A stretch of 64,000 nucleotides of DNA from Mongoliibacter ruber (GTDB lineage Bacteria > Bacteroidota > Bacteroidia > Cytophagales > Cyclobacteriaceae): positions 310,001-374,000 of the forward strand of contig NZ_PVTR01000005.1 in assembly GCF_003003005.1 (NCBI RefSeq). The letters run 5' to 3'. This document shows, piece after piece, positions 21,522 to 35,536 of this stretch; position 1 is the stretch's first letter; every line of letters begins with the position of its first letter. The notes beneath the pieces were generated by a model. It saw nothing but the letters and a program-made list of their open reading frames with translations. It did not search any database and was not told where the DNA came from. Made by a program: the position numbers and the translations under genes.

Positions 21522-22784
21522 ATGAGCCACTATAACGTAATAATAATCGGAGGAGGTACAGCAGGCATTACTGTCGCTGCTCAACTACGCAGAAAAGACA
21601 AGTCAATCAAAACAGCATTGATCGAACCTTCAGAAAAACACTACTACCAACCGGCTTGGACGCTGGTAGGTGCGGGTACTTTCGACTTTAAAAAAACAGA
21701 GAGAAAAGAAGCTGATTACATCCCAAAAGGGGTAGATTGGATCAAGGATTTCGCACAATCTTTTGACCCGAAAAACAACAAAGTAGTCACCAAAGACGGT
21801 TCGGAGTACACTTATGACTTCTTAGTAGTGGCTCCAGGTTTAGTTGTTGATTTCAGTTTGCTACCTGGATTGAAAGAGGCAATGCAAACTGATTCTGTTG
21901 GAAGTATTTATACTGATCCGGAGGGTTTTTGGAAAAAACTGCAAAATTTCAAAGGAGGAAATGCGGTCTTTACGCAAGCCAATACACCTATAAAATGTGG
22001 TGGAGCTCCTCAAAAAATCATGTATTTGTCGGAGCATTATTTTAGGAAAAAAGGGATTAGGGACAAAGTTAATGTGATTTTTGCAACCCCAGGGACTGTG
22101 ATATTTGGGGTAAAGGAAATTGCAAAAACTTTAAGCAAAATCATAATTGATAGGGACATCAATCTAAAGACCTATTATGCTCCCGTCAAAATAGATGGAG
22201 AAAAAAAAGAAATTACGTATCGATTTATGAACAGCCATTTGCAAAACTGCGCAATGGTAGTGGACAATAATCTAGGAGAAGATATTGTGGGAGAATCCGA
22301 AATAAAGATGAAATATGACCTGCTACATCTTGCCCCACCCCAAAGGGCTCCTGATTTCATCATTGAATCCCCATTTTCATATCAAGAAGGCCCAAACAAA
22401 GGTTGGCTAGAAGTAGATCAATTCTCCTTACAGCATAAAAGGTTTGACAATGTCTTTGGGCTAGGTGATGTCGTTGCTTTGCCTACTGCAAAAACAGGCG
22501 CAGCTGTCAGAAAACAAGCACCTGTAGTGGTCGACAATATCATAAAGCTGATAAAAAGCAAGAAAATAGGAGAGCAAAAATACGAAGGTTACTCTTCTTG
22601 TCCTCTGGTAACGGGCTACGGAAAGATGGTCCTGGCAGAATTTAAATATAACAATGTAAGGGATAGCGACCCAATCATTTCCAAGTTTGTAAATACCAAT
22701 AAGGAACAGTACTCCATGTGGCTACTCAAAAAGTACGGGCTTCCTTTCATGTATTGGAACCTGATGTTAAAGGGACGAGCTTGA
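21522..22784 (+). CDS. Sulfide:quinone oxidoreductase (SQOR-like flavoprotein)
   Basis: 420 residues. N-terminal FAD-binding motif VIIIGGGTAGITVAAQLRR, a second FAD contact FDNVFGLGDVVALPTAKTGA near 309-327, and two conserved cysteines in the contexts typical of mitochondrial-type SQOR: Cys159 (TPIKCGGAPQK) and Cys360 (GYSSCPLVTGYGKMVLAEF). It oxidises sulfide to sulfane sulfur and passes electrons to the membrane quinone pool; a C-terminal amphipathic segment (WLLKKYGLPFMYWNLMLKG) would bind the membrane. Single gene with its own convergent terminator. Likely a sulfide-detoxifying enzyme. Confidence 0.9.
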   Translation: MSHYNVIIIGGGTAGITVAAQLRRKDKSIKTALIEPSEKHYYQPAWTLVGAGTFDFKKTERKEADYIPKGVDWIKDFAQSFDPKNNKVVTKDGSEYTYDFLVVAPGLVVDFSLLPGLKEAMQTDSVGSIYTDPEGFWKKLQNFKGGNAVFTQANTPIKCGGAPQKIMYLSEHYFRKKGIRDKVNVIFATPGTVIFGVKEIAKTLSKIIIDRDINLKTYYAPVKIDGEKKEITYRFMNSHLQNCAMVVDNNLGEDIVGESEIKMKYDLLHLAPPQRAPDFIIESPFSYQEGPNKGWLEVDQFSLQHKRFDNVFGLGDVVALPTAKTGAAVRKQAPVVVDNIIKLIKSKKIGEQKYEGYSSCPLVTGYGKMVLAEFKYNNVRDSDPIISKFVNTNKEQYSMWLLKKYGLPFMYWNLMLKGRA

Positions 22785-22805
22785 TCAAAAAAAGCTTGAA
22801 ATGAA

Positions 22806-22837
22806 AAAAGACCTGCCTTTTCCAAAGCAGGTCTTTT
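22806..22837. terminator. Bidirectional terminator between SQOR and the giant gene pair
   Basis: Stem AAAAGACCTGC / GCAGGTCTTTT, with A residues before and T residues after, so it can act on both strands. It lies 22 bases after the SQOR stop and 5 bases after the stop of the convergent 1425-codon gene. Confidence 0.85.
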
Positions 22838-22841
22838 CTGC

Positions 22842-25800
22842 TTAATAATTTTCACAAGTAGGACAACAGACAAATGGTACTTTTGTGAGCGGAGAAGTCC
22901 TCAAAATCCTAAATTGTCCTAGCCCTGATGAAAGAGGCAGTTGGTTTTCATGGGAATGATTCCCACCTTGGAAATCACCGGACCATTGGTTTGCCGCAAA
23001 TCCCGCAAACCCTGTCATACCTCTTCTCATGTTTCTAATATGATCCGAAAAGTTGGTGATATTACCATACACTTCCACTACAATCACACTCAATGGACTA
23101 TCCTCAGGTAGTCCCATATTCTTTAATAATTCCGCAATTTCCAAGCTGGAAAAAGCGACAGTTCCCATTGAATGTAGATTTTTGTGAAGGGAAAGAAAAG
23201 CGCCAATATCCACTATCTCAGGCTTGAATTCAAAACTAACTGGCTTGCTTGGGGTATTAGACGCTGCTGGTACAAAAGTAAAAGACTGAAGCTTTTTTTC
23301 AATTTCAGATGCCTTTTGCTCTTTCTCTTTTTCGAAATCATGTCTCATAATCTTTTCTGACAATAAGATATTTCTAAAATCCAGTCCGTCTGCCTGACTT
23401 ACCTGGGTATAAAGCAAAGACCACAAACTTGTTCTCGGTGGTTTTGCAGTAACATTTTTCCCTTTTAAAACTGCCTTAGCAAAAGGTGCACTGACATATA
23501 GAAAATTTTCATCTCTGGTAACACTACAAAGCAAATTCGGAAATGGGTGCTGAAGTCCTGTCACTCTAATTGGTCTTCCATACCTCCCTTGGGCAGTAGA
23601 CCACAAATTATCTTCCTGCTCCGCCCAATGGGTATGCCCAACCCTAAACTCGTAAGTAAAAAACCCAAACATTTCAGGACTTTCAGGATGAAGTCCCGGA
23701 GGAAGAGGCAAAATATAATGCCTATCACTGTCATTGGCTTTGATCATGGGCTGCATGGCGTCCAAGCCTGCCATATCATCGGATTGTCCAGGTACAACGA
23801 CACGAGTAAACTCAGGGGCAATCGGTAAGTCAGATTCCTCCGGTGCCGCAAACTGATCCAAATTATTAGAACTCAGCAATTGATCTGGGGAATTAGCCAA
23901 CACCCGACAGAAGTAAGTATCATCGGGACTCTGAATAGCCTCATCAAACTCCACCCAAAGGTATTTGCTGCGTGCTTCGGTGCTGCTGTAATCATCGGAA
24001 CGGTGATAAGGAGAAAAGGCTAATCCTACAGATACAATTTTAGGAACCTGACTTGGTCGTAAAACAGTTGGCAATTTAAGGTCCTCAGCCAGCACTTGAT
24101 CTATCGGGGCATGACCTTTTTTGACATGTGGTGTAATGGTATAATCTACCCATAACTCATCAGGAAATCTAGGGTTGCTATTGGACACCGACCTCCTAAA
24201 TGGAGATTTGGGTTCAACAGCATCTATAAAAACTATCCGTGTGAACCCTCTTTCAACACGTCCAAACCTATTCTCCTGCAAGGATTCGAATGAAGCGGTC
24301 TCCAGAAATTCAATATCTCCTACATTGGATTCCTGAATGGGTGCAGGGCCATCTGATGGGTAATCGATACTTAAGCCAAGCACCTCTTTAAGCTTTCTTT
24401 GTAGGATTTGACGTGCCGTGTAATTACCTGAAGCGGCCTCTATCATATCCCTTCTGAAGACAGTTGTTTTGCCAATACTGAATGCTGTTGTTTCAAGGCT
24501 GTCCCAAGCCCAATCTCTATTGACTTGATAGCTGAGGCAACCTAACCAATGATCCTGAAGTTCAGACCTGCTGGCAAAAGTCACACTACTGCCATCGGGT
24601 GCAAGCGAATGTCTGATTCTACTGCTTACTCCAAACACTATCCTTTCACCTTTAGGAGCATACAGTGTCATGCCTTTGGCCCTCAATCCCAATGCCATCG
24701 CCAAGCGTTGAACGATATCAGGGATTTCCTGAGATTTATTTTTGAGCAAATGAAATTTAAGAATATCCTTTAGATTTCCTTTGGTCACGGGGACTTCATT
24801 TGCCCTTAAAAACAATGCCTGATGTGTCGGAATATTTTTATATGGTATCAAAAGACTTTCTTCAGAATCAGTTTCTTTATAAAACAAAAACTGCAATACT
24901 TTCCCATACCTGCTATCCAGTTCTGGATTTCCTTCATTGATCAATCCAAAATACGTCTGATCATCCACAGAGCCTCCATCTGCTACTGCCCTTAGGCTTA
25001 ATCTTATATGCCTTCCTTTTGGAAGGATAATTCCTTCCATTTTATCCAAATCTTCTTTTTTGAGGTCGTCCCTTAAAAAAGGGTTGGTAGGTTCTCCAAG
25101 GTTCAAAACAGGCACATCAATGAAAGCAATAGGAACCTCTAATCCCTCAGTAAAGTCCTCCGAAAAATTTCTTTTGGTGGTGTACAAAGTGATATAATTT
25201 TCATTCCCTTCAAGACTGAGCTGATTGTCCATTTGTAATGTTTTCACTTCTATTTTGAACTCCACCATATTGGCATCGGGATCAGGAACTCCCAAGACCA
25301 ACTGATCATCCGTATTGAAGTCAAGATTTTTCAGCATTTGAATAGGATCCTGTCCCCTTTGTTGGTATTTACCAGTCAATACCACTCCCGGATATTCCAT
25401 AAGTGGCCTTTGGATCTTCAACAGCTGATTGTCTAAAAAGGTGGTTTCCTCCTTATCCTCAGCATTAAAGTATTTCCCCTCTAGCTTTGAGATATGATCC
25501 GGTTTTTCTATTCTTAAATTATCAGGTGCTAAATATCTTTTGAAAGAAACAGTGGTCTGAGGAGAAGGTCCTGCATGAAGCGGGTCATCCTCAAGGGATG
25601 GCCCTCCCCCACTAAGGTCGGCCATTCTTATTCTGAATTGATAAGTTTTCCCATACCTCAGCTCCGTTCTTATTTCCGGAGCTGTCAACACATCATTTTT
25701 TTCGGTTTGTTTTGGTTCTTCTTTTGGATTTTCTTTATCGTCAATAAAACCTTTATTTTTTTTATCGTTTTTATAAATCTCTATGGCATCCCTATCTTCG

Positions 25801-27119
25801 ACAGCCATACTTTTCCCGATCCAGTTAGCAAAGTACATCGGCAACCAATAAGGGTTAGGCTGCAGGGTACGCTTCTTGGAGGGGTAAACCTGATGTGGCA
25901 GTTCAACAGTCCTATCTTCTAGGTTATCTGTAAGTGCAATAATACCCCTATTCAAAAAAGCCTTGTTGAGGTTTTCCCATTCTGCTCCTTCCTGCTGCTC
26001 CCTGACATCAATTTTGTAACCTGCCACTCCCAAAGGCGAGTCTACCCTTTTCCCATTTCCAGGTATTTCTGCTTCATTCTCAACCAGTTGCCTGATATAC
26101 CAAATTAAGATCTGTTCATCATCCCAAGCCAACCTTATACCAGACTCATATTGGGGATGAATGCCGTCTGGAATTTCTTTAAGAATATCTGTGCTTACTG
26201 CCTGACCTGCATGGACAATCTTGGCAAACCCGTCATCATACACGATACTTTCTTTGAAAAGTGTGTCCCATGGGGCTGGAGGAACCACCTCAAATTCTGT
26301 CTGAGCACTTTTTCTATACAAAACTGGGAAAAGAATAGGGGCAAAAACCGGACGTGATTTCTCTTCTTCCAATTTGGGAATTCTAGCGGCGTATCTTTTG
26401 ATAAGGGGACCATCATCATGCTCCAAAGTTTGATTCTGGATTTCAGCCCATGCCTGATTGCTTACATCTACATACAAATACCCGCCATCTGCGATTTCAT
26501 CAGGACTCAAGTCGATTTTTGTTTTGTAGATCATTCCGCAAGCTTCAGCTAAAAGAGGTTGCTTGAATATGTAGGCAAATACTTTTCCCCAGCTCAACAC
26601 CTTCTTGGGTTGATAGTCAATAATTTCATCAACCTCTTTTTTCAAGGCACATTCATAACTATCGTCCGTGACAGCATTGGGGTGGGCAGGTCGGGTAAAA
26701 TTAAAACTTCGTCTGTAGGACTCCGGAAGGAATTTCTTCACACTCAGGTTTAAGTCCAGCACATCACCAAGTTTGTCTTGTGTATCACTGATATTGTCAA
26801 TACCAAAAATATCTGCAACACCTTTAATGGTATCATACTTTTTTTCGCTGGGCTTGATGGCAGCAGTCACCAATCTTGGTTGCCTATTGGCTGCTGAAGC
26901 ATTGCTTAGCGGAAAATCGTCCAAGCCTTTGACAAATGCCAGAGAAAACTCAGGTTGAAGTGTTACAAAAGGAGGCACTTGCTGAACTGGACTTAACCCT
27001 AGCTGAAATGGTTCAAATGGATTATGATTCCTTGGAACGATGACTATGTTAACATGAAGGCTTTTCCCATCAAATCTTTGAGGGAAAACCATCGTGGTGA
27101 AAGCTCTGAATTTTTCCAT
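22842..27119 (-). CDS. Giant protein B (1425 residues), unrecognised
   Basis: Starts at ATG 27119 (MEKFRAFTTMVFPQRFDG). No signal peptide, lipobox or membrane helix is evident, so it is probably cytoplasmic or exported without a classical signal. The sequence is mostly beta-strand-like with few repeats. A charged linker (about 449-475, rich in K, D, E, N) precedes a segment ELRYGKTYQFRIRMADLSGG (about 486-505) that resembles a fibronectin-type-III strand. The extreme C-terminus carries a cysteine cluster FVCCPTCENY (CC-x2-C). A Gly/His/Asn-rich stretch (DFQGGNHSHENQ) lies just before it. It forms an apparent operon with giant protein A upstream (31-base gap). I recognise no family and propose no enzyme activity. 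Confidence 0.9.
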   Translation of the reverse strand: MEKFRAFTTMVFPQRFDGKSLHVNIVIVPRNHNPFEPFQLGLSPVQQVPPFVTLQPEFSLAFVKGLDDFPLSNASAANRQPRLVTAAIKPSEKKYDTIKGVADIFGIDNISDTQDKLGDVLDLNLSVKKFLPESYRRSFNFTRPAHPNAVTDDSYECALKKEVDEIIDYQPKKVLSWGKVFAYIFKQPLLAEACGMIYKTKIDLSPDEIADGGYLYVDVSNQAWAEIQNQTLEHDDGPLIKRYAARIPKLEEEKSRPVFAPILFPVLYRKSAQTEFEVVPPAPWDTLFKESIVYDDGFAKIVHAGQAVSTDILKEIPDGIHPQYESGIRLAWDDEQILIWYIRQLVENEAEIPGNGKRVDSPLGVAGYKIDVREQQEGAEWENLNKAFLNRGIIALTDNLEDRTVELPHQVYPSKKRTLQPNPYWLPMYFANWIGKSMAVEDRDAIEIYKNDKKNKGFIDDKENPKEEPKQTEKNDVLTAPEIRTELRYGKTYQFRIRMADLSGGGPSLEDDPLHAGPSPQTTVSFKRYLAPDNLRIEKPDHISKLEGKYFNAEDKEETTFLDNQLLKIQRPLMEYPGVVLTGKYQQRGQDPIQMLKNLDFNTDDQLVLGVPDPDANMVEFKIEVKTLQMDNQLSLEGNENYITLYTTKRNFSEDFTEGLEVPIAFIDVPVLNLGEPTNPFLRDDLKKEDLDKMEGIILPKGRHIRLSLRAVADGGSVDDQTYFGLINEGNPELDSRYGKVLQFLFYKETDSEESLLIPYKNIPTHQALFLRANEVPVTKGNLKDILKFHLLKNKSQEIPDIVQRLAMALGLRAKGMTLYAPKGERIVFGVSSRIRHSLAPDGSSVTFASRSELQDHWLGCLSYQVNRDWAWDSLETTAFSIGKTTVFRRDMIEAASGNYTARQILQRKLKEVLGLSIDYPSDGPAPIQESNVGDIEFLETASFESLQENRFGRVERGFTRIVFIDAVEPKSPFRRSVSNSNPRFPDELWVDYTITPHVKKGHAPIDQVLAEDLKLPTVLRPSQVPKIVSVGLAFSPYHRSDDYSSTEARSKYLWVEFDEAIQSPDDTYFCRVLANSPDQLLSSNNLDQFAAPEESDLPIAPEFTRVVVPGQSDDMAGLDAMQPMIKANDSDRHYILPLPPGLHPESPEMFGFFTYEFRVGHTHWAEQEDNLWSTAQGRYGRPIRVTGLQHPFPNLLCSVTRDENFLYVSAPFAKAVLKGKNVTAKPPRTSLWSLLYTQVSQADGLDFRNILLSEKIMRHDFEKEKEQKASEIEKKLQSFTFVPAASNTPSKPVSFEFKPEIVDIGAFLSLHKNLHSMGTVAFSSLEIAELLKNMGLPEDSPLSVIVVEVYGNITNFSDHIRNMRRGMTGFAGFAANQWSGDFQGGNHSHENQLPLSSGLGQFRILRTSPLTKVPFVCCPTCENY

Positions 27120-27150
27120 AATTAAGATTATTTAAAAATGATGGTTTGGA

Positions 27151-30100
27151 TCAGGCGATTTGCCTTCTTTCTTGCCAAGTTTCTTCGAAACTAATATCTA
27201 TGACAAAGCAGATGCTGATTTCCAGACCAAATGTCATGGAGGCAACACATTCTGTTCTATTACCTGACCTTGAAACACCTCCAGCTGCTTCTATATAAAT
27301 GGTGACTGACACCAGTCCCATGGCTAGACTTATCCGGCCCTTGAACAGAATCACAGCGAGCAGTTGGAATTTATCCTTTGCTATAAAAAGATCCGCTCCT
27401 ACCAAATAAGTCACACTCACATTCCCTATGACAGGTAGCCCAACAGTGATGTTTGCCCCAAAACCAAACTTCATACGTACATTGGGGCCATCTTTGGTAT
27501 CGCAGGCAAGCTTCAAATCCACTTTTCCTACAGCATAAATGGTGGCTACACTAACTGTGGCACACATCACCTGTAAGCCTCCTTTAAACTGAAGAAAAGC
27601 CCCTGCTGTGGGAATCAATTGATTTGGCTGAGAAGTAACCTTTAATGCGGCATTGAAGAAAAATCCAAGCGCCATGGAAGCTTCAAGCCTCAGTGGTGTA
27701 TTGGGGTCATTGTATAGTTCACCCGGAGGAAACTGAATGGTTGGGATTTCCTGTGAAGCCTCAAATTTATATTCCCAAATCTCACCTGCATTCCCCATGG
27801 CTATTTTTAAGCCTTTTTTCATAATATCGGCATAATCTCCATTGCCCAAAGAAGCGAGGATCTGCAAAATATTTACTACAGTTTCCAACTCTTTTGAAAG
27901 TTGTACCTCAGGAACAGAAATCCCATTGGATGAATTACCTCCTGAAGACAAGTCTCCTTCATATCCGGGCATTTTCCCTTTGTAGGCATCGAAATTTCCT
28001 TTGATGCTCATCAACCTTTTGAAACTGCCCAAGTCTACCACCATGGCCACATCTTTAACCCGGCTCTTCCATGTATCTGCTGCATTTTGAGCAAATGAGT
28101 TGATGTCAAAATCCAGCTTGGAATTTTGTTGGGATCCATTGTTGGGAGTGATTTTATAGTCCATATAAATCCTCAGGACATTAGGCATATTCACTATTTC
28201 CACCTCATTGGCTGTTGGCATTTCAAAGGATACTGCCTGACCTATTAATGGGTTTTTTGTTCCCGACAAAAGCTTAAATCCTTGAGCAACTACAGCTTCA
28301 CCTGCCTTGACAGGATCTATTTCCAGCAATTCCATGACCTTGATATTGCCATCATGGTAATCAACCTCATTGAAAGCCTTAATAGCAATATTGGGATTAT
28401 TTGCTGCAAAAACGTTGTATAAGGGTACAGCTGATCCAAAATCACTACTCGCATTTCCACTATTAGGGAAAATCGTATTATCCCGCATGAGCCTGTATGC
28501 ATCAGCAAACAATGGTGGCGTTTTGCTCAATATTTTTTTGGAATTTCTTGCAAATGATGGTGTAAGAAACAGTGCTTTTTGAGTAGCTGTGGATTGTAAA
28601 AATCCAAAGTTCAGGGTATCAGGCTGAGGGTTCCTTACTATTTCACCTGGGTTGGCCAAGCGAATTAAGTTTTTTTGGACTACTTCAGGATTGACTACTT
28701 TTTCTTTGATCCACTCACCTGTTCTGATCACAGGAATAGCTTCATGAATAGGCAATGGAGTGACATCTCCTGTACCCCTTTCATGAGAAACCAAGGTCCA
28801 ACTGCCATCTTTAGGAAGAAATACCGACCCTTTTGGAGCAATCACAAAAACAGGAGAACCTGAATTGTCCTTGGCGTGGGTAAAGTCTACCCTGCTTACT
28901 CTCATTTGCTGACCACTCTTATTGAGGTCAATAATACAATCTACATCAGCCCCTATGATGCCCCCTTGGAGGTCCAGTAAGGAAACAAATTGGTCCTCTG
29001 TCAACGGAATACCAGTTGGGGCCAATTGTACATAACCTAGGATTTTTTTGGCAGGCACTTTACCGTCATTATGCCCCTGTACTGTGTTTTCCAGCAGAAT
29101 ATCCGCATCAAACCATACCGGCACACACTTTATATCTTGCTTTCTAGCTGCACCAAGTTCAACCTCTTCACCAAAAATATTGATAAATGCTTCATTCTTG
29201 ACATAATCCCTGGTATCACTAAACTCAGGCATTGTAGGGTCTTCCTTTATATTTTTGATATCAAAAAGCCCATAGACCAAGCCTGGATGCAGCTTATATG
29301 GACTTTTTTCCTTGTGTAGCTCCCCGTCCCTTTTGAACTGATAACTAAAATCAAAAAGTCCATCTGACTCAGCCTGCCAACCACTGTCAGTACGGAAGAC
29401 AAAACCATTTGCTCCCCTAAAAATTGTGATCGTTCTGACTACCCGAATGCCCCAAGGATAAATCAAACTCTTCACTTGAATCACTTCATGAGCAGTACGC
29501 CCCAGCATCACTTCAAACTTGGCCTGGGAGGTCTGAGCTATTGCTGCTGAAGGACTGACCCAATCACTGAAAGTACTGGCTCCATAGCCTGTAAAGTCGA
29601 TTCTTGAAAGCGGAACTCCCCTGCCTGTGACCTGACTAGGTTGTGCCTGATCTATAAAAAATTCTCCATTGAAAATGTAGGTGACGCTGTGTCCTAAAGT
29701 ACTTGTACCTGTTGCGCTTCCATTATTATCCAGAATATTGGAAAGTTGGACGGTCATTCCGGCAAACATGGGTTTGTCATCTTTATCAGGGGATTCAACT
29801 TCCTTATCAGAAAATTTCTTTCCGTGATCTCCTGCTATTGTACTGATGTGCAGCCCACCTTTTACATTTTCAAAGAAGCTTGGCTGAACCATCTGTACTG
29901 AGGGTTTAGTCTTTTCCTTTTCATTTATATAAGTCAGGAATGAAACGGCCTTCAAGCCAAACGGAAGTGTAAAAAAGCATTGAAGTATGGAGTTCTGGTC
30001 ATTTTTGTATCTCTGCGTAATAAAATGACTTAAAGGAAGGGGGGCAAGCTGAATGGGAATTGGGTAATTGTTGAAAATCCTAGTTGGTCCACCATCATTT

Positions 30101-32511
30101 GGATAATAATTAAAACCTCCTTTGGGATCACCTGGCATGGTAATTTCGTTACCATTGGTATCTTCCACTGCATCAGGAGGACTTAAGTTGTATACTGGTT
30201 CCCAAGCTACTTGAGGCAAAACAAATACCCTAGCCATAGTAGCAGGCAACTGAACTTGCATCCCATCAATGATCAACCCTGAATGGTTAACTGCCTCAAT
30301 ATCATAATTCCCTTGTTCAACTTCCTTAGCCACTCCTGTCCTTTCATCTCTGCGTCCTCTGCCAGGGCGATAGTTCCCAGGCCCAACGGCTACCCCCATT
30401 TGATTGGCATTGCTACTGACATCCAACAAGGTAAAATAGTCCAGCAGCTGTTGACCAAACAAGTCGCCAAATTGCTTTTCATAATCCGGTAATTCATTTA
30501 CCAACCTAGAATCGTTTTTGCGGTTTTCAGGAACTATAGGTTTAAACTCCCTTATGGGTTTGTATACAGAGGCTTGTTGGGCAGTAGCGGTTGACACAGG
30601 AGCGTTTTGTGGGGCTGAAGGAAACCCCTGTAGCGCTTGCGCATGATGAAAACTAACTGTCAACTCATCCAAATCCTTCTCCAATGGCTTTTGTACAAGC
30701 TGACAGATCAACCAATTTTGAACCCCATCCAATCCTTTTTGGATATTCACTCGGGTATCTCTCCTCCATTTATAATTGACCAAATAAGGATCAGGCAAAG
30801 TAGGCATGTATCCAAATAGACCAAACTGTAAAAAAGTATGGCTTTCAGTTATTTTGTCCCAAGTTGAATTGATTACTCCGAAAATGATACAGGAATTCAC
30901 AGGAGAAACTGAAAAAAGTCCGTTTTCCAGAGCTATGGCTCTTGTCTTAAAACCTGGCATCCTACGATCCGCTTTGCCCTCTTGGTTGTCCCAAATGATG
31001 TTACCATCATAAAAATAAACTGCATTTTTTTCGGCGGAAGCAAAGGTGACAAAGACTGAATTCTTAGTCTTTATTTCAAAAGCATGGCCATTTACTTGCA
31101 CTGGTCTATCCAGTTGTACATCGGCATTTACTTCAGTCATCGTCAACTCAACACCTTCTGCAAGCACATTATAAACAAACGGACTTTCTTTTGAAAAAAA
31201 GAGATGTAAGGAAGTGCCGTGGGGATTTAGATTATCCTTGTAATGTTGAATATCCTGATAGACTCCCAACCAATTAGACTTGACATCGGTTATGCCTATC
31301 CTTCCAGGATCCAATAAAAACAAAGGTGAAATCAATCTCCCTTCATTACCATGCTGCCCAAGACAGGAAACCCTAAAACCCTCTTTGGTCAAAACAGCCA
31401 AGCCTCCTGCACCTGAAGCTTGAAGGGGAGCATTGATATCCAATAATGCTGCAGGGATAGCCCACCATGAAGCTTCCAGACCTGCTTTTCCATTTAACTT
31501 CACGTAAGGGCTTTTTTGGTCAAGGATTTCAAGTTCCTCTTTATCACATCGCATAGGTATCATCAACCTATTGGTCCTTTGATGAAAAAATGGAGTACCG
31601 GAAGTAAGATGGCTGAATCTCATCTCTTCCCCATAGAGCATGCAAGATGCTTCTGTAATATTGTTGATTTTGGCGATTCCTGGACTTGTAAACTCAAATT
31701 CAAATTTTTCCGGTTGGTCTAATTTCAATTCTCTTGCATCCTGACCTAAGCCTTCTTCACCCTGTGAAGTGAATTCTTGCGCTTTAAGCTCCAAAGCAAC
31801 ACTTACTTTGGACTGATTGGGAATTACCAGCCTGTTTCCAACAATAGATGGTTTGGTACTGAGCTTGACTGCACCGTTTTTTACTGCCAATCCAATGTAC
31901 CTATCTGAAGGAAGGCCAACAGCAAAAAGATCAGCCCTTATCCAAACAGACCCTTCTACCAAACTATATTCATTTCTGGACGAATCAGTAAGTTTATCAC
32001 TTTGCAATACCAATCTACCAGATGAACTCCACCGACCTGTAAAAAGCAGCGCAGGCTGGTTATTACCTGGCTGAAAGAGCGTTACCATCTTTTCTACACG
32101 ATATACATCTACAAAAATCTCGCGCCCATCAATGTGTGGAAGAGGTCCATAAGTGACTTCGGGCCTAGAACCTGCAGCCCACTGCGGCACACTATTAGGT
32201 ACCTGAGTACTACGTATTGGCACTTCTCTGAGAAATACTCGGGTATCTGAGGATCTCTCCTCCTGCCTTATGTCTTTCACTGCCTTCCTGACCGACGCCC
32301 TCTTTTGTTCGTCAATTTGATTTTTTTGAAACAAATCCATCCTGTCAAATACAAAGGATTGATTTCTAATCTGACTGACATCTTGCTTTGCCAAAGCCGA
32401 AATCGTTATAGGCAAAGCGGCCTCCCAGTCATCTCTTTGTTTTTTGGTAAATGTCTGAAATTGTCCAAAAACAGAGGACAGAAGCTCCTGAATGTTCTGC
32501 ATTTCTTCCAT
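27151..32511 (-). CDS. Giant protein A (about 1786 residues), unrecognised
   Basis: Best start is the ATG at 32511 (MEEMQNIQELLSSVFGQFQT); an in-frame TTG 54 bases upstream would add a hydrophobic stretch but is less likely. The first 90 residues are helical and charged; most of the rest is beta-rich, with a Gln/Ala/Pro linker (PQNAPVSTATAQQASVYKP, near 640) and a Gly/Arg patch (GNYRPGRGRRDERTG). The C-terminal 180 residues alternate hydrophobic and polar residues with many Gly (for example FGFGANITVGLPVIGNVSVT, RISLAMGLVSVTIYIEAAGG), like consecutive amphipathic strands of a barrel or solenoid. No classical signal peptide. First gene of a two-gene unit with giant protein B. Function unknown. 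Confidence 0.9.
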   Translation of the reverse strand: MEEMQNIQELLSSVFGQFQTFTKKQRDDWEAALPITISALAKQDVSQIRNQSFVFDRMDLFQKNQIDEQKRASVRKAVKDIRQEERSSDTRVFLREVPIRSTQVPNSVPQWAAGSRPEVTYGPLPHIDGREIFVDVYRVEKMVTLFQPGNNQPALLFTGRWSSSGRLVLQSDKLTDSSRNEYSLVEGSVWIRADLFAVGLPSDRYIGLAVKNGAVKLSTKPSIVGNRLVIPNQSKVSVALELKAQEFTSQGEEGLGQDARELKLDQPEKFEFEFTSPGIAKINNITEASCMLYGEEMRFSHLTSGTPFFHQRTNRLMIPMRCDKEELEILDQKSPYVKLNGKAGLEASWWAIPAALLDINAPLQASGAGGLAVLTKEGFRVSCLGQHGNEGRLISPLFLLDPGRIGITDVKSNWLGVYQDIQHYKDNLNPHGTSLHLFFSKESPFVYNVLAEGVELTMTEVNADVQLDRPVQVNGHAFEIKTKNSVFVTFASAEKNAVYFYDGNIIWDNQEGKADRRMPGFKTRAIALENGLFSVSPVNSCIIFGVINSTWDKITESHTFLQFGLFGYMPTLPDPYLVNYKWRRDTRVNIQKGLDGVQNWLICQLVQKPLEKDLDELTVSFHHAQALQGFPSAPQNAPVSTATAQQASVYKPIREFKPIVPENRKNDSRLVNELPDYEKQFGDLFGQQLLDYFTLLDVSSNANQMGVAVGPGNYRPGRGRRDERTGVAKEVEQGNYDIEAVNHSGLIIDGMQVQLPATMARVFVLPQVAWEPVYNLSPPDAVEDTNGNEITMPGDPKGGFNYYPNDGGPTRIFNNYPIPIQLAPLPLSHFITQRYKNDQNSILQCFFTLPFGLKAVSFLTYINEKEKTKPSVQMVQPSFFENVKGGLHISTIAGDHGKKFSDKEVESPDKDDKPMFAGMTVQLSNILDNNGSATGTSTLGHSVTYIFNGEFFIDQAQPSQVTGRGVPLSRIDFTGYGASTFSDWVSPSAAIAQTSQAKFEVMLGRTAHEVIQVKSLIYPWGIRVVRTITIFRGANGFVFRTDSGWQAESDGLFDFSYQFKRDGELHKEKSPYKLHPGLVYGLFDIKNIKEDPTMPEFSDTRDYVKNEAFINIFGEEVELGAARKQDIKCVPVWFDADILLENTVQGHNDGKVPAKKILGYVQLAPTGIPLTEDQFVSLLDLQGGIIGADVDCIIDLNKSGQQMRVSRVDFTHAKDNSGSPVFVIAPKGSVFLPKDGSWTLVSHERGTGDVTPLPIHEAIPVIRTGEWIKEKVVNPEVVQKNLIRLANPGEIVRNPQPDTLNFGFLQSTATQKALFLTPSFARNSKKILSKTPPLFADAYRLMRDNTIFPNSGNASSDFGSAVPLYNVFAANNPNIAIKAFNEVDYHDGNIKVMELLEIDPVKAGEAVVAQGFKLLSGTKNPLIGQAVSFEMPTANEVEIVNMPNVLRIYMDYKITPNNGSQQNSKLDFDINSFAQNAADTWKSRVKDVAMVVDLGSFKRLMSIKGNFDAYKGKMPGYEGDLSSGGNSSNGISVPEVQLSKELETVVNILQILASLGNGDYADIMKKGLKIAMGNAGEIWEYKFEASQEIPTIQFPPGELYNDPNTPLRLEASMALGFFFNAALKVTSQPNQLIPTAGAFLQFKGGLQVMCATVSVATIYAVGKVDLKLACDTKDGPNVRMKFGFGANITVGLPVIGNVSVTYLVGADLFIAKDKFQLLAVILFKGRISLAMGLVSVTIYIEAAGGVSRSGNRTECVASMTFGLEISICFVIDISFEETWQERRQIA

Positions 32512-32790
32512 TGCATAAAAGGTTAAGAGGTAAAAAACAGTTTGCAGCTTTTTAAATCCCACCAAAAAAATTATGCTTCCAACCTAAAAACTTTTCCAAT
32601 CACCGCACAAGAACAAAATTCAAAAACAGCGTTAACTAAATGAAAGTTAGCGTATTAATTTTTTAATCGCAATGAAAAATGATTTTATTTATTAAAATAA
32701 TACAATTAAAAACATAATCATAAAACTAAAATTTAGATAGAATTTTTAAACTTTTTATAAATCCCAAATGCCATTAAACAAAATATGCTT

Positions 32791-32885: not shown

Positions 32886-33109
32886 GCCAAGTTATTTATT
32901 GATCTGAATCAAACATTAAAACTAGAATTATAATCTACTGGCAAAGTGGTGAATAATCATACTATTTTAAATGAAAAGTCCCTTTATTATTAAAATTTGA
33001 AAAGTTCACACTTGATTTTATCCACTCCTAAGAAGAAAACAAAGGTAATCCTAAAGAGCCTTGAAAATAGATTAATTAGAAGTAATATTGAACAAATCCA
33101 TTGACCCAA

Positions 33110-35536
33110 ATGATGAATTTGAAAGTATCTATTTTCTTTTTAGTTTTTTTATCAACTATCGGACAAGTACATTGTCAGACATTAAAAATTCTGGATAAAG
33201 AAAGCAACTCACCCATTGAATTTGTAGCCGTTTCCCAATCCAAAAACAATATCATTGCATTTACAGATAAATCTGGCCAGGTTGATTTAAGCTCATTTTC
33301 CACATCTGATAAAGTCGAAATCAGGCTATATGGTTACAAACCTAAATTAAGGACTTTTGCCGAACTTCAGGCAAAAGAATTTATTGTCTATTTGGAATCT
33401 AGCACTATTGCATTGGAACAGGCCGTCGTATCAGCTACCAAATGGAGTCAATCCCGGCAGGAAATACCCGCAAGAATCACCTCTATCACCAAGGAAGAAA
33501 GAGAACTCCTAAACCCTCAGACAGCCGCTGATTTACTGGCCATTTCAGGTGAGGTTTTCATTCAAAAAAGCCAACAGGGTGGTGGAAGTCCCATGATCAG
33601 GGGGTTCTCGACAAATAGACTACTGTACACTGTGGATGGAGTCAGAATGAATACCGCTATTTTCAGAAGTGGGAATCTTCAAAATGTTATTTCACTGGAT
33701 CCTTTTGCCACAGAAAGCACTGAAGTTTTTTTTGGACCGGGATCAATCATTTACGGAAGTGATGCCATCGGTGCAGTGATGAGTTTCCAAACCCTCCAAC
33801 CGGAATTCTCAACTGAGGACAATCTCCTTATCAGCGGAAACACAAGCTTGAGAACCAGTACTGCCAATGGAGAGAAAACAGGTCATATTCATGTGAAATA
33901 TGGTGGCAAAAAATGGGCAGGTGTGACCAGTTTCAGTAGACAAGAGTATGGAGACCTAAGGATGGGCAGCCGTGGTCCAGATGCCTTTTTGAGACCTTTT
34001 AATGTGATCAGAGAGAATGACCAAGATATTGTAGTTGACAATCCAGATCCCGAGGTACAAACACCAACAGCATACAATCAGATCAATATCTTGCAGAAAC
34101 TCCGTTTTTCACCCAATGAAAAATGGGATTTTCAATATGGCTTTCATTACTCAGCTAGTTCAGAGTTTGACAGGTATGATAGACTTACTAGAATGCGCCC
34201 CAACGGCCTTCCTGCTTCGGGTGAATGGAAATATGGTCCTCAAACATGGATGATGAATCACCTGAAGGTTACGCACACAGCAAAAAAAGACATCCTCTAT
34301 GACCAATTCTCTCTGAGCCTTGCCCTGCAACATTTTGGGGAAAGCAGGATTGACAGAAACTTCAATAACCCCAATCGAAGAACAAGAGAAGAAGAGGTGG
34401 ATGCCTATTCAGCAAATCTGGATTTCATCAAGGAACTGCCCAATGATGCTAAGGTTTTTTATGGTTTGGAATACGTTTGGAACGATGTACGCTCAACGGG
34501 CAATTCAGTCAACATCCTGACGGGTCAGCGCAGTTCGACGGCAGCAAGATACCCTATGGCTAGTTGGAATTCCTATGCCGCATATGCTACTTATCAGAAA
34601 AAAATCAGTCCATCCTCACTCATTCAAGGTGGCCTAAGGTACAATAGGTTTGGACTTAGAGCTGATTTCAGTGCAAACAGTGAGTTTTACCCACTGCCGT
34701 TCACCGAGAGCAGAAATGAAGAAGGTGCTTTAACAGCAAGTACTGGCTGGGTCTACACTCCATTTGACACATGGACCTTTCATTTGAATGCCTCCACCGG
34801 TTTTAGGGCTCCCAACGTTGATGATATCGGTAAAATTTTTGACTCTGAACCGGGCACGGTGATGATTCCTAATCCAAATCTTAAAGCTGAATATGCATAC
34901 AACCTGGAAGCTAACGCAGGAAAAGTCATCAATGAAAACATTATGATTGACCTCACCGCTTACTACACCAGATTGGAAAATGCACTTGTCAGGAGAGAAA
35001 CAAGCTTAAATGGACAGGACAGCATCCTTTATGATGGCGAACTCAGCAGGGTACTGTCATTGCAAAATGCAGCTTTTGTAAGCATCTTAGGACTACAAGC
35101 CGCCCTGGAAGTCAAACTACCAAATTACCTTACATTTTCATCCAGAATCAATATACAAAGAGGTACTGAAGAAATGGATGATGGACAGCGAAGCCCTTCT
35201 AGACATGCTCCCCCGACTTTTGGAGTTACCCGATTGGAATACAGCAGAGAAAAGTTAAGAATGCAGCTCTATACCGAATACGCCAGTGGATTTTCCTTTG
35301 AGCAATTACCTCTGGAGGAAAGAGGAAAACCAGAATTGTATGCGGTAGATGAAAATGGGAACCCGTTCAGCCCTTCATGGGCTACAATTAGCTTTAAATC
35401 TTTCTACCAACTAATTGGAAACATTTCCATAAGTACCGGTGTGGAAAACATAACCAATGTCAGATATAGGACCTACGGTTCGGGAATAGCTGCTCCAGGC
35501 AGAAATTTCGTAGTAGCCCTTATGGCCAATTTCTAA
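33110..35536 (+). CDS. TonB-dependent receptor (hemoglobin/heme receptor-like)
   Basis: 808 residues from the ATG at 33110. Signal peptide about 1-22 (ending VHCQ); short carboxypeptidase-like regulatory domain about 23-95; plug about 110-230 with ITSITKEERELLNPQTAADL, GGGSPMIRGFSTNRLLYTVD and FFGPGSIIYGSDAIGAVMSF, the pattern seen in heme/hemoglobin-type receptors; then a full barrel ending in VVALMANF with a terminal aromatic residue. It imports a bulky ligand or metal complex using TonB energy. The downstream ZIP and SLC13-type genes on the same strand suggest metal or ion uptake; the ligand itself cannot be read from sequence. Confidence 0.92.
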   Translation: MMNLKVSIFFLVFLSTIGQVHCQTLKILDKESNSPIEFVAVSQSKNNIIAFTDKSGQVDLSSFSTSDKVEIRLYGYKPKLRTFAELQAKEFIVYLESSTIALEQAVVSATKWSQSRQEIPARITSITKEERELLNPQTAADLLAISGEVFIQKSQQGGGSPMIRGFSTNRLLYTVDGVRMNTAIFRSGNLQNVISLDPFATESTEVFFGPGSIIYGSDAIGAVMSFQTLQPEFSTEDNLLISGNTSLRTSTANGEKTGHIHVKYGGKKWAGVTSFSRQEYGDLRMGSRGPDAFLRPFNVIRENDQDIVVDNPDPEVQTPTAYNQINILQKLRFSPNEKWDFQYGFHYSASSEFDRYDRLTRMRPNGLPASGEWKYGPQTWMMNHLKVTHTAKKDILYDQFSLSLALQHFGESRIDRNFNNPNRRTREEEVDAYSANLDFIKELPNDAKVFYGLEYVWNDVRSTGNSVNILTGQRSSTAARYPMASWNSYAAYATYQKKISPSSLIQGGLRYNRFGLRADFSANSEFYPLPFTESRNEEGALTASTGWVYTPFDTWTFHLNASTGFRAPNVDDIGKIFDSEPGTVMIPNPNLKAEYAYNLEANAGKVINENIMIDLTAYYTRLENALVRRETSLNGQDSILYDGELSRVLSLQNAAFVSILGLQAALEVKLPNYLTFSSRINIQRGTEEMDDGQRSPSRHAPPTFGVTRLEYSREKLRMQLYTEYASGFSFEQLPLEERGKPELYAVDENGNPFSPSWATISFKSFYQLIGNISISTGVENITNVRYRTYGSGIAAPGRNFVVALMANF

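Follow-up and report, generated by a model that had tools for sequence, protein, structure and literature searches.

Several described systems resemble one part or another of the gene pair considered here. The barrels of the outer membrane, such as CymA, OmpG and those of autotransporters, are long antiparallel meanders with one hydrophobic face; porins have long outer loops, and the last strand of outer-membrane barrels ends in an aromatic residue. The lipid-binding sheets of apoB and vitellogenin offer an analogy as amphipathic beta-sheets. Tc toxin complexes, a further analogy, are giant, multi-subunit and patchy in occurrence, with no classical signal peptide. Finally there are the chains of FN3/Ig-type domains. 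How does the locus of Mongoliibacter ruber compare with them? In the window (the whole stretch of 64,000 nucleotides that was analysed), gene A (22842..27119, minus strand) encodes 1425 residues from its ATG, a candidate scaffold with FN3/Ig-like domains, and gene B (27151..32511, minus strand) encodes 1786 residues from a conserved ATG. The frame of B is open to a TTG at 32565 (27151-32565, minus strand), which would give 1804 residues, and the ATG at 32511 lines up with the start codons of relatives. By their coordinates the genes are co-directional and 31 bases apart. A two-way hairpin (22785..22841, belonging to neither strand) lies between A and a convergent flavoprotein gene; it is edged by A- and T-runs, and its folding energy is -22.2 kcal/mol, or z -3.4 relative to 200 shuffled sequences. 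Coordinates and hairpin folding both agree with the preliminary description, which had seen two intact giant frames closed by such a hairpin. The flavoprotein, of the pyridine nucleotide-disulphide oxidoreductase family (21522..22784, plus strand), and a TonB-dependent receptor divergent from B (33101..35536, plus strand) flank the unit from outside, and both are used below as markers of the empty site. The host genome of 5.0 Mb holds one match to A and one to B.

Searches for known families

At E up to 1, neither A nor B has a match in Pfam or NCBIfam; in PHROGs the pair has a single one, at E 0.24. In the PDB, the search by sequence found none for A and one for B at E 0.15, nothing above chance, and the search by profile found none for either. 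When 25 members of each family were scanned with Pfam at E up to 0.1, nothing appeared for B and three single-member rows (E 0.032-0.081) for A; there was no FN3 match in the A members and no RHS/Tc domain among the matches of either family. No enzyme or toxin family was found for A or B in Pfam, NCBIfam or PHROGs. PADLOC, with five proteins scanned, returned one row, B against Cas13a at E 0.016 and 13.8 bits, which we take as chance level. In the part of the literature that full-text search and a search on five homolog accessions give access to, no paper describing the pair was found. That the pair is undescribed rests on these partial literature searches and on the family libraries. A strong match to a described family would have changed this picture, and there was none, by sequence or by fold, to a system of known function. 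No known kind could be assigned to A and B, which does not amount to proof of a new mechanism.

Pairing, divergence and selection

A scan of 84,980 species genomes found 120 relatives, and the best 80 of these 120 gave the 79 loci analysed. A lies directly downstream of B in 77 of the 79 loci, 75 of them found by ORF and profile search and two (L069, L084) by tblastn. In the two loci without A (L101, L110), the contig stops inside B. Contig ends also cut some copies of A, for example in L063, L082 and L084, and two loci show frame splits, B in L092 and A in L094 being spread over two frames each. Measured by ORF starts, seven loci (L065, L068, L093, L096, L104, L105, L112) have more than 100 bases between A and B, the widest gap being 765 bases. 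The search for co-occurring homologs, suggested as a check by the preliminary description, thus finds them as a pair in fixed order. The pairwise identities of A and B are correlated with r = 0.963 (Spearman 0.915; 71 rows, 2485 pairs), and common ancestry by itself adds to this r. Both genes are under purifying selection. The Nei-Gojobori dN/dS of A and B is 0.036-0.129 in five close homolog pairs, of which L038-L078 is near saturation; three wider pairs with the window were left out, their synonymous sites being saturated or infinite. Selection had earlier been argued from the size of the intact frames, and these ratios bear the argument out.

Is there a site from which both genes are missing? 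The gene order flavoprotein, A, B, TonB receptor is found in the window and in the genome G133. In three B-negative genomes of the Algoriphagus group (G485, G491, G249) the pair is cleanly and jointly absent: after the flavoprotein comes a receptor homologous to that of the window, the two matches lying about 190-310 bases apart, and neither A nor B gives a match at E 1e-10. The sample consisted of 12 B-negative genomes searched for the flavoprotein, of which 10 were positive and 9 regions were examined; in 6 of these 9 the stretch contained no match to the receptor. The pair may have been either lost or gained at this site. The earlier proposal of a large two-protein assembly receives indirect support from the fixed-order co-occurrence, the correlated divergence and the joint absence at an intact site. 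A and B would then be two subunits of one accessory machine, in contact with each other and inherited as a two-gene cassette.

Predicted structures and protein ends

Structures were predicted with AlphaFold for A 1-1190 (68 rows; mean pLDDT 85.4, pTM 0.72) and B 690-1786 (65 rows; mean pLDDT 83.1, pTM 0.71), the rows having been thinned from 72 and 77, respectively, with limits of 90% identity and 85% coverage. A is predicted to be an elongated chain with FN3-like domains. About residues 292-1020 align with FN3 chains, and the part of about residues 485-1020 (24060..25667, minus strand) does so at Z up to 7.1. The VIA-align rows are mostly of FN3 type, the top two being lambda tail-tip protein. 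Unlike in established FN3/Ig-type chains, the best Z is only 7.1, a value in the tool's range of common arrangements, and the Pfam FN3 match is missing from the 25 members. Foldseek of the A model against viral models gave low-TM rows, among which are several tail or FN3 proteins. Past a variable linker, A ends in a conserved tail (22845..22937, minus strand) with the consensus PL...LGxxRILRTSPLTxVPxVCCxxC. Its best-kept core is G-x2-R-I-x-R-x-S-x-L, each position being kept in at least 97% of 72 rows. The terminal CC-x2-C pointed out in the preliminary description is present and common (57 of 75 A proteins), though not invariant; of the 18 others, two (L083, L107) are truncated where their contigs stop. 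A may be pictured as an elongated scaffold or binding subunit which would be attached to the assembly through this tail.

The C-terminus of B is predicted as ten strands of 14-19 residues each, and residues 1607-1786 (27154..27693, minus strand) form a long-strand amphipathic meander in a porin-like arrangement. In VIA-align, about residues 1549-1786 match CymA (4d5d) with Z 14.3, rmsd 7.0 and 205 aligned, and OmpG (2iwv) with Z 12.7, rmsd 7.2 and 204 aligned. Since the rmsd is loose and many unrelated barrels reach Z 9-12, the likeness is one of arrangement, not kinship. Foldseek of the models against the PDB gave low TM values, higher for short barrels alone (BrkA 3qq2, prob 0.99, TMt 0.32; CymA 4d5b, TMt 0.39). 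Matches this weak, for the predicted B 690-1786 and A 1-1190, are no proof of new folds. In the eight strands of B 1607-1767 one face has a mean Kyte-Doolittle value of 2.1 to 3.0 and the other of 0.1 to -1.7 (65 rows); strands 1 and 10 of this end lack the two-faced pattern, and a few short strands elsewhere also alternate. When whole proteins are scanned in windows of 14 residues, the fraction of windows whose two faces differ by more than 3.0 is 0.473 for the C-terminal 190 residues of B (range 0.316-0.582 in 77 proteins, the cut copies L101 and L110 being left out); elsewhere in B it is 0.078, in A 0.075 and in shuffled sequences 0.056. The lowest value, 0.316, belongs to B of Microvirga terrae, whose end has diverged or been replaced, since the profile match ends near position 1533; the B homolog on a Chloroflexota plasmid keeps the two-faced end. 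Nine turns link the ten strands, seven of 2-4 and two of 12 residues, and short turns occur on both sides of the sheet. The FN3-like segment of A and the amphipathic C-terminus of B, both of which had been noticed from the letters of the window, recur in the predictions, while the long porin-like meander had gone unnoticed. The earlier statement that there is no membrane helix also stands: the top 19-residue mean Kyte-Doolittle value is 1.16 in A and 1.83 in B, so that none is evident, and the maximum of B falls inside the alternating strands.

Do A and B carry an export signal? By hydropathy and start conservation, no conserved signal peptide precedes either protein. Among 73 B loci with the upstream stop visible a conserved Sec signal is absent, and a hydrophobic 10-residue window occurs in 10 of the 73, in unaligned positions. 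In the window, the stretch that the TTG start would add to B holds a hydrophobic run which most relatives do not keep. Nearly all intact copies of B end like SFxxxWxExRQIA, the last residues being I/V-A. These facts bear on the interpretation that B is an outer-membrane barrel of the classical kind, with export by Sec and folding by BAM. In its favor, roughly the last 235 residues are arranged like a porin, but no conserved signal peptide is seen by hydropathy, B ends in R-Q-I-A or close variants rather than in an aromatic residue, and a two-faced homolog is carried on the plasmid of a Chloroflexota species, a phylum not known to have an outer membrane. The comparison with known outer-membrane barrels shows further differences: the turns are mostly tight on both sides, sequence kinship is absent, and the barrel-like part terminates a protein of 1786 residues. 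We consider this interpretation quite improbable.

Two others have to be weighed against the same sheet. One is an intracellular carrier or coat, in which, by analogy with apoB and vitellogenin, the sheet of B would close round or cover lipid or another hydrophobic cargo and A would be the outer scaffold. The missing signal peptide, the hydrophobic face along the full length of the eight strands and the purifying selection are consistent with it. In the second-look list apoB-100 appears at Z 10.1, but with an rmsd of 29.7, which makes this row weak and unusable as a match to B. PhaC is found in none of the 72 Algoriphagus-group genomes (the control in Caulobacter was positive) and WS/DGAT in none over the cut-off, with one sub-threshold match, whereas B is in 26 of the 72. 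The WS/DGAT test is weak, since none of 14 controls was positive. In these genomes a coat of polymer or wax granules finds no support, and the carrier or coat in general seems to us unlikely. The other is a structural assembly, soluble or at the surface, which touches neither membrane nor lipid and in which the end of B would be a long packed beta domain or a dimer interface. It fits the FN3-type chain of A, the strong purifying selection and the lack of any enzyme or toxin family; however, eight consecutive strands with hydrophobic faces of about 8 residues seem to exceed the usual needs of a core. We regard it as rather unlikely as well.

Our preferred reading, which we hold tentatively and at somewhat less than even confidence, is that A and B form a two-subunit assembly that engages membrane or lipid and reaches its site by a non-classical route. 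B would be the engaging subunit, with a large and mostly beta body followed by the ten-strand meander, and the meander would most likely enter the bilayer as a barrel. Lacking a classical signal peptide, the two proteins may act after lysis or some other non-classical release. Several features sit poorly with this reading: the mostly tight turns on both sides of the sheet, where porins have long outer loops; the last strand, which is not two-faced; and the Microvirga plasmids, of which one carries remains of A and no B and another a B whose end the profile no longer matches.

Distribution, neighbours and possible purpose

A search of 395 genomes from the phylum turned up B in 11, and a search of 59 relatives turned up A in 2, the own genome being counted in both; in the Algoriphagus group the share of B-positive genomes is the 26 of 72 given above. 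A profile of B 690-1786 matched 8 of 296 genomes of the phylum, again with the own genome, and one of 244 genomes in the phylum of G468, the one being this Nodosilinea genome itself, a previously known carrier; in these 296 and 244 genomes the region was never met in another architecture. By record title, the 79 loci from the best 80 of 120 relatives are mostly Bacteroidota, together with nine other phyla: Chlorobiota, Planctomycetota, Pseudomonadota, Acidobacteriota, Gemmatimonadota, Ignavibacteriota, Chloroflexota, Cyanobacteriota and Actinomycetota. Single records outside Bacteroidota may be binning errors, since most are metagenome bins; the complete Chloroflexota plasmid with a homolog is separate support for a spread beyond Bacteroidota. 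A tree of 74 B rows made with FastTree requires 5 changes of the Bacteroidota label, which is in line with transfer and is no proof of it. The long-branch rows (L114-L116 and others) are unsure; nearest to B of the window are the rows of Arthrospiribacter, Mongoliibacter and Indibacter, which suggests an origin of the window in Cyclobacteriaceae.

Could the pair be a passenger of phages or plasmids? The phage search found no match to A, and 86 pattern matches in viral contigs included no relative of B. Four plasmid records carry A, all predicted non-mobilizable, with both genes in three of them. In the Tistrella mobilis plasmid (L116:10961-14973) B lies over two frames, the annotated gene having 1230 residues, and on a Microvirga plasmid (L117:11936-13069) B is missing and A is left as a decayed fragment spread over two frames. 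The passenger explanation was rejected on these records.

In Algoriphagus and close genera the flanks of the pair are shared synteny. Beyond these loci the nearest genes are mixed among the 25 commonest neighbour families. For the Pfam scans of neighbours (25 commonest families of 98 and 25 commonest of 157) the 20 Algoriphagus-type loci were left out (ORFs: 82/97 upstream, 80/97 downstream). When the neighbours were clustered, no further gene, for instance one for immunity, proved to be conserved beyond what synteny within clades explains. A co-directional regulator of LuxR type, most with a PAS-like match, lies upstream of B in 8 loci from one part of the B tree (L061, L063, L074, L086, L088, L102, L103, L108). 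In Microvirga terrae (L115) a PAS-domain gene is annotated upstream of B. In Pararhodonellum marinum a thiol-activated cytolysin (L042:7279-8799, minus strand; PF01289, E 1.1e-85) with a lipoprotein-like start stands divergently upstream of B, and in Pedobacter sp. Leaf194 a Tle1-type phospholipase (L111:7989-9050, plus strand; PF09994, E 2.8e-89) precedes B by about 600 bases. Being two cases in all, these neighbours are too few to carry weight. In Cyclobacterium salsum a frame of 1432 residues with no Pfam match (L108:19846-24144, plus strand) follows directly past A.

Secretion by an unusual route had been named earlier as one possibility. By hydropathy no conserved signal is indeed present and such a route is possible, but one candidate route, delivery as cargo of a contractile injection system, finds no association. 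Sheath PF04984 matches at E up to 0.001 occur in 21 of 26 A/B-bearing genomes, 15 of them over the cut-off (L060 left out), and the own genome has such matches at three places, on contigs C1, C2 and C4 outside the window. This test alone is misleading, since sheath matches are frequent in the genus. In the Algoriphagus group 20 of the 26 genomes with B have them, and so do 31 of the 46 without B, many of these 46 being incomplete; six genomes with B have none. With no association between sheath and B in this group, cargo of this kind was rejected and we hold it to be highly improbable. As for toxins, no variable C-terminal toxin domain was seen: few parts of B are conserved as well as its end, although that end differs in Microvirga, and the tail of A is conserved. 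An arms-race toxin is disfavored by the low dN/dS, the lack of a variable payload end and the lack of a conserved third gene. The pair differs from the Tc toxins in that no variable payload end is seen and in the missing RHS/Tc match.

What, then, might the assembly do? For the two-subunit assembly that engages membrane or lipid, antagonism or surface interaction would be the likeliest purpose. In its fullest form, which we consider possible but doubtful, the pair would be an undescribed giant two-subunit machine and a minimal cassette moving between phyla, in which a signal-less B brings a C-terminal barrel that embeds in lipid and the conserved, often cysteine-rich tail of the FN3-type A locks the assembly. 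If this is true, the family libraries searched have missed a pair that is conserved, totals about 3200 residues and occurs in many environmental bacteria. It would also add a way of placing a beta-barrel in a membrane, or of holding lipid, without the usual export signal. Its function is testable by deletion, as the pair is present in about one third of Algoriphagus genomes and cleanly absent elsewhere.
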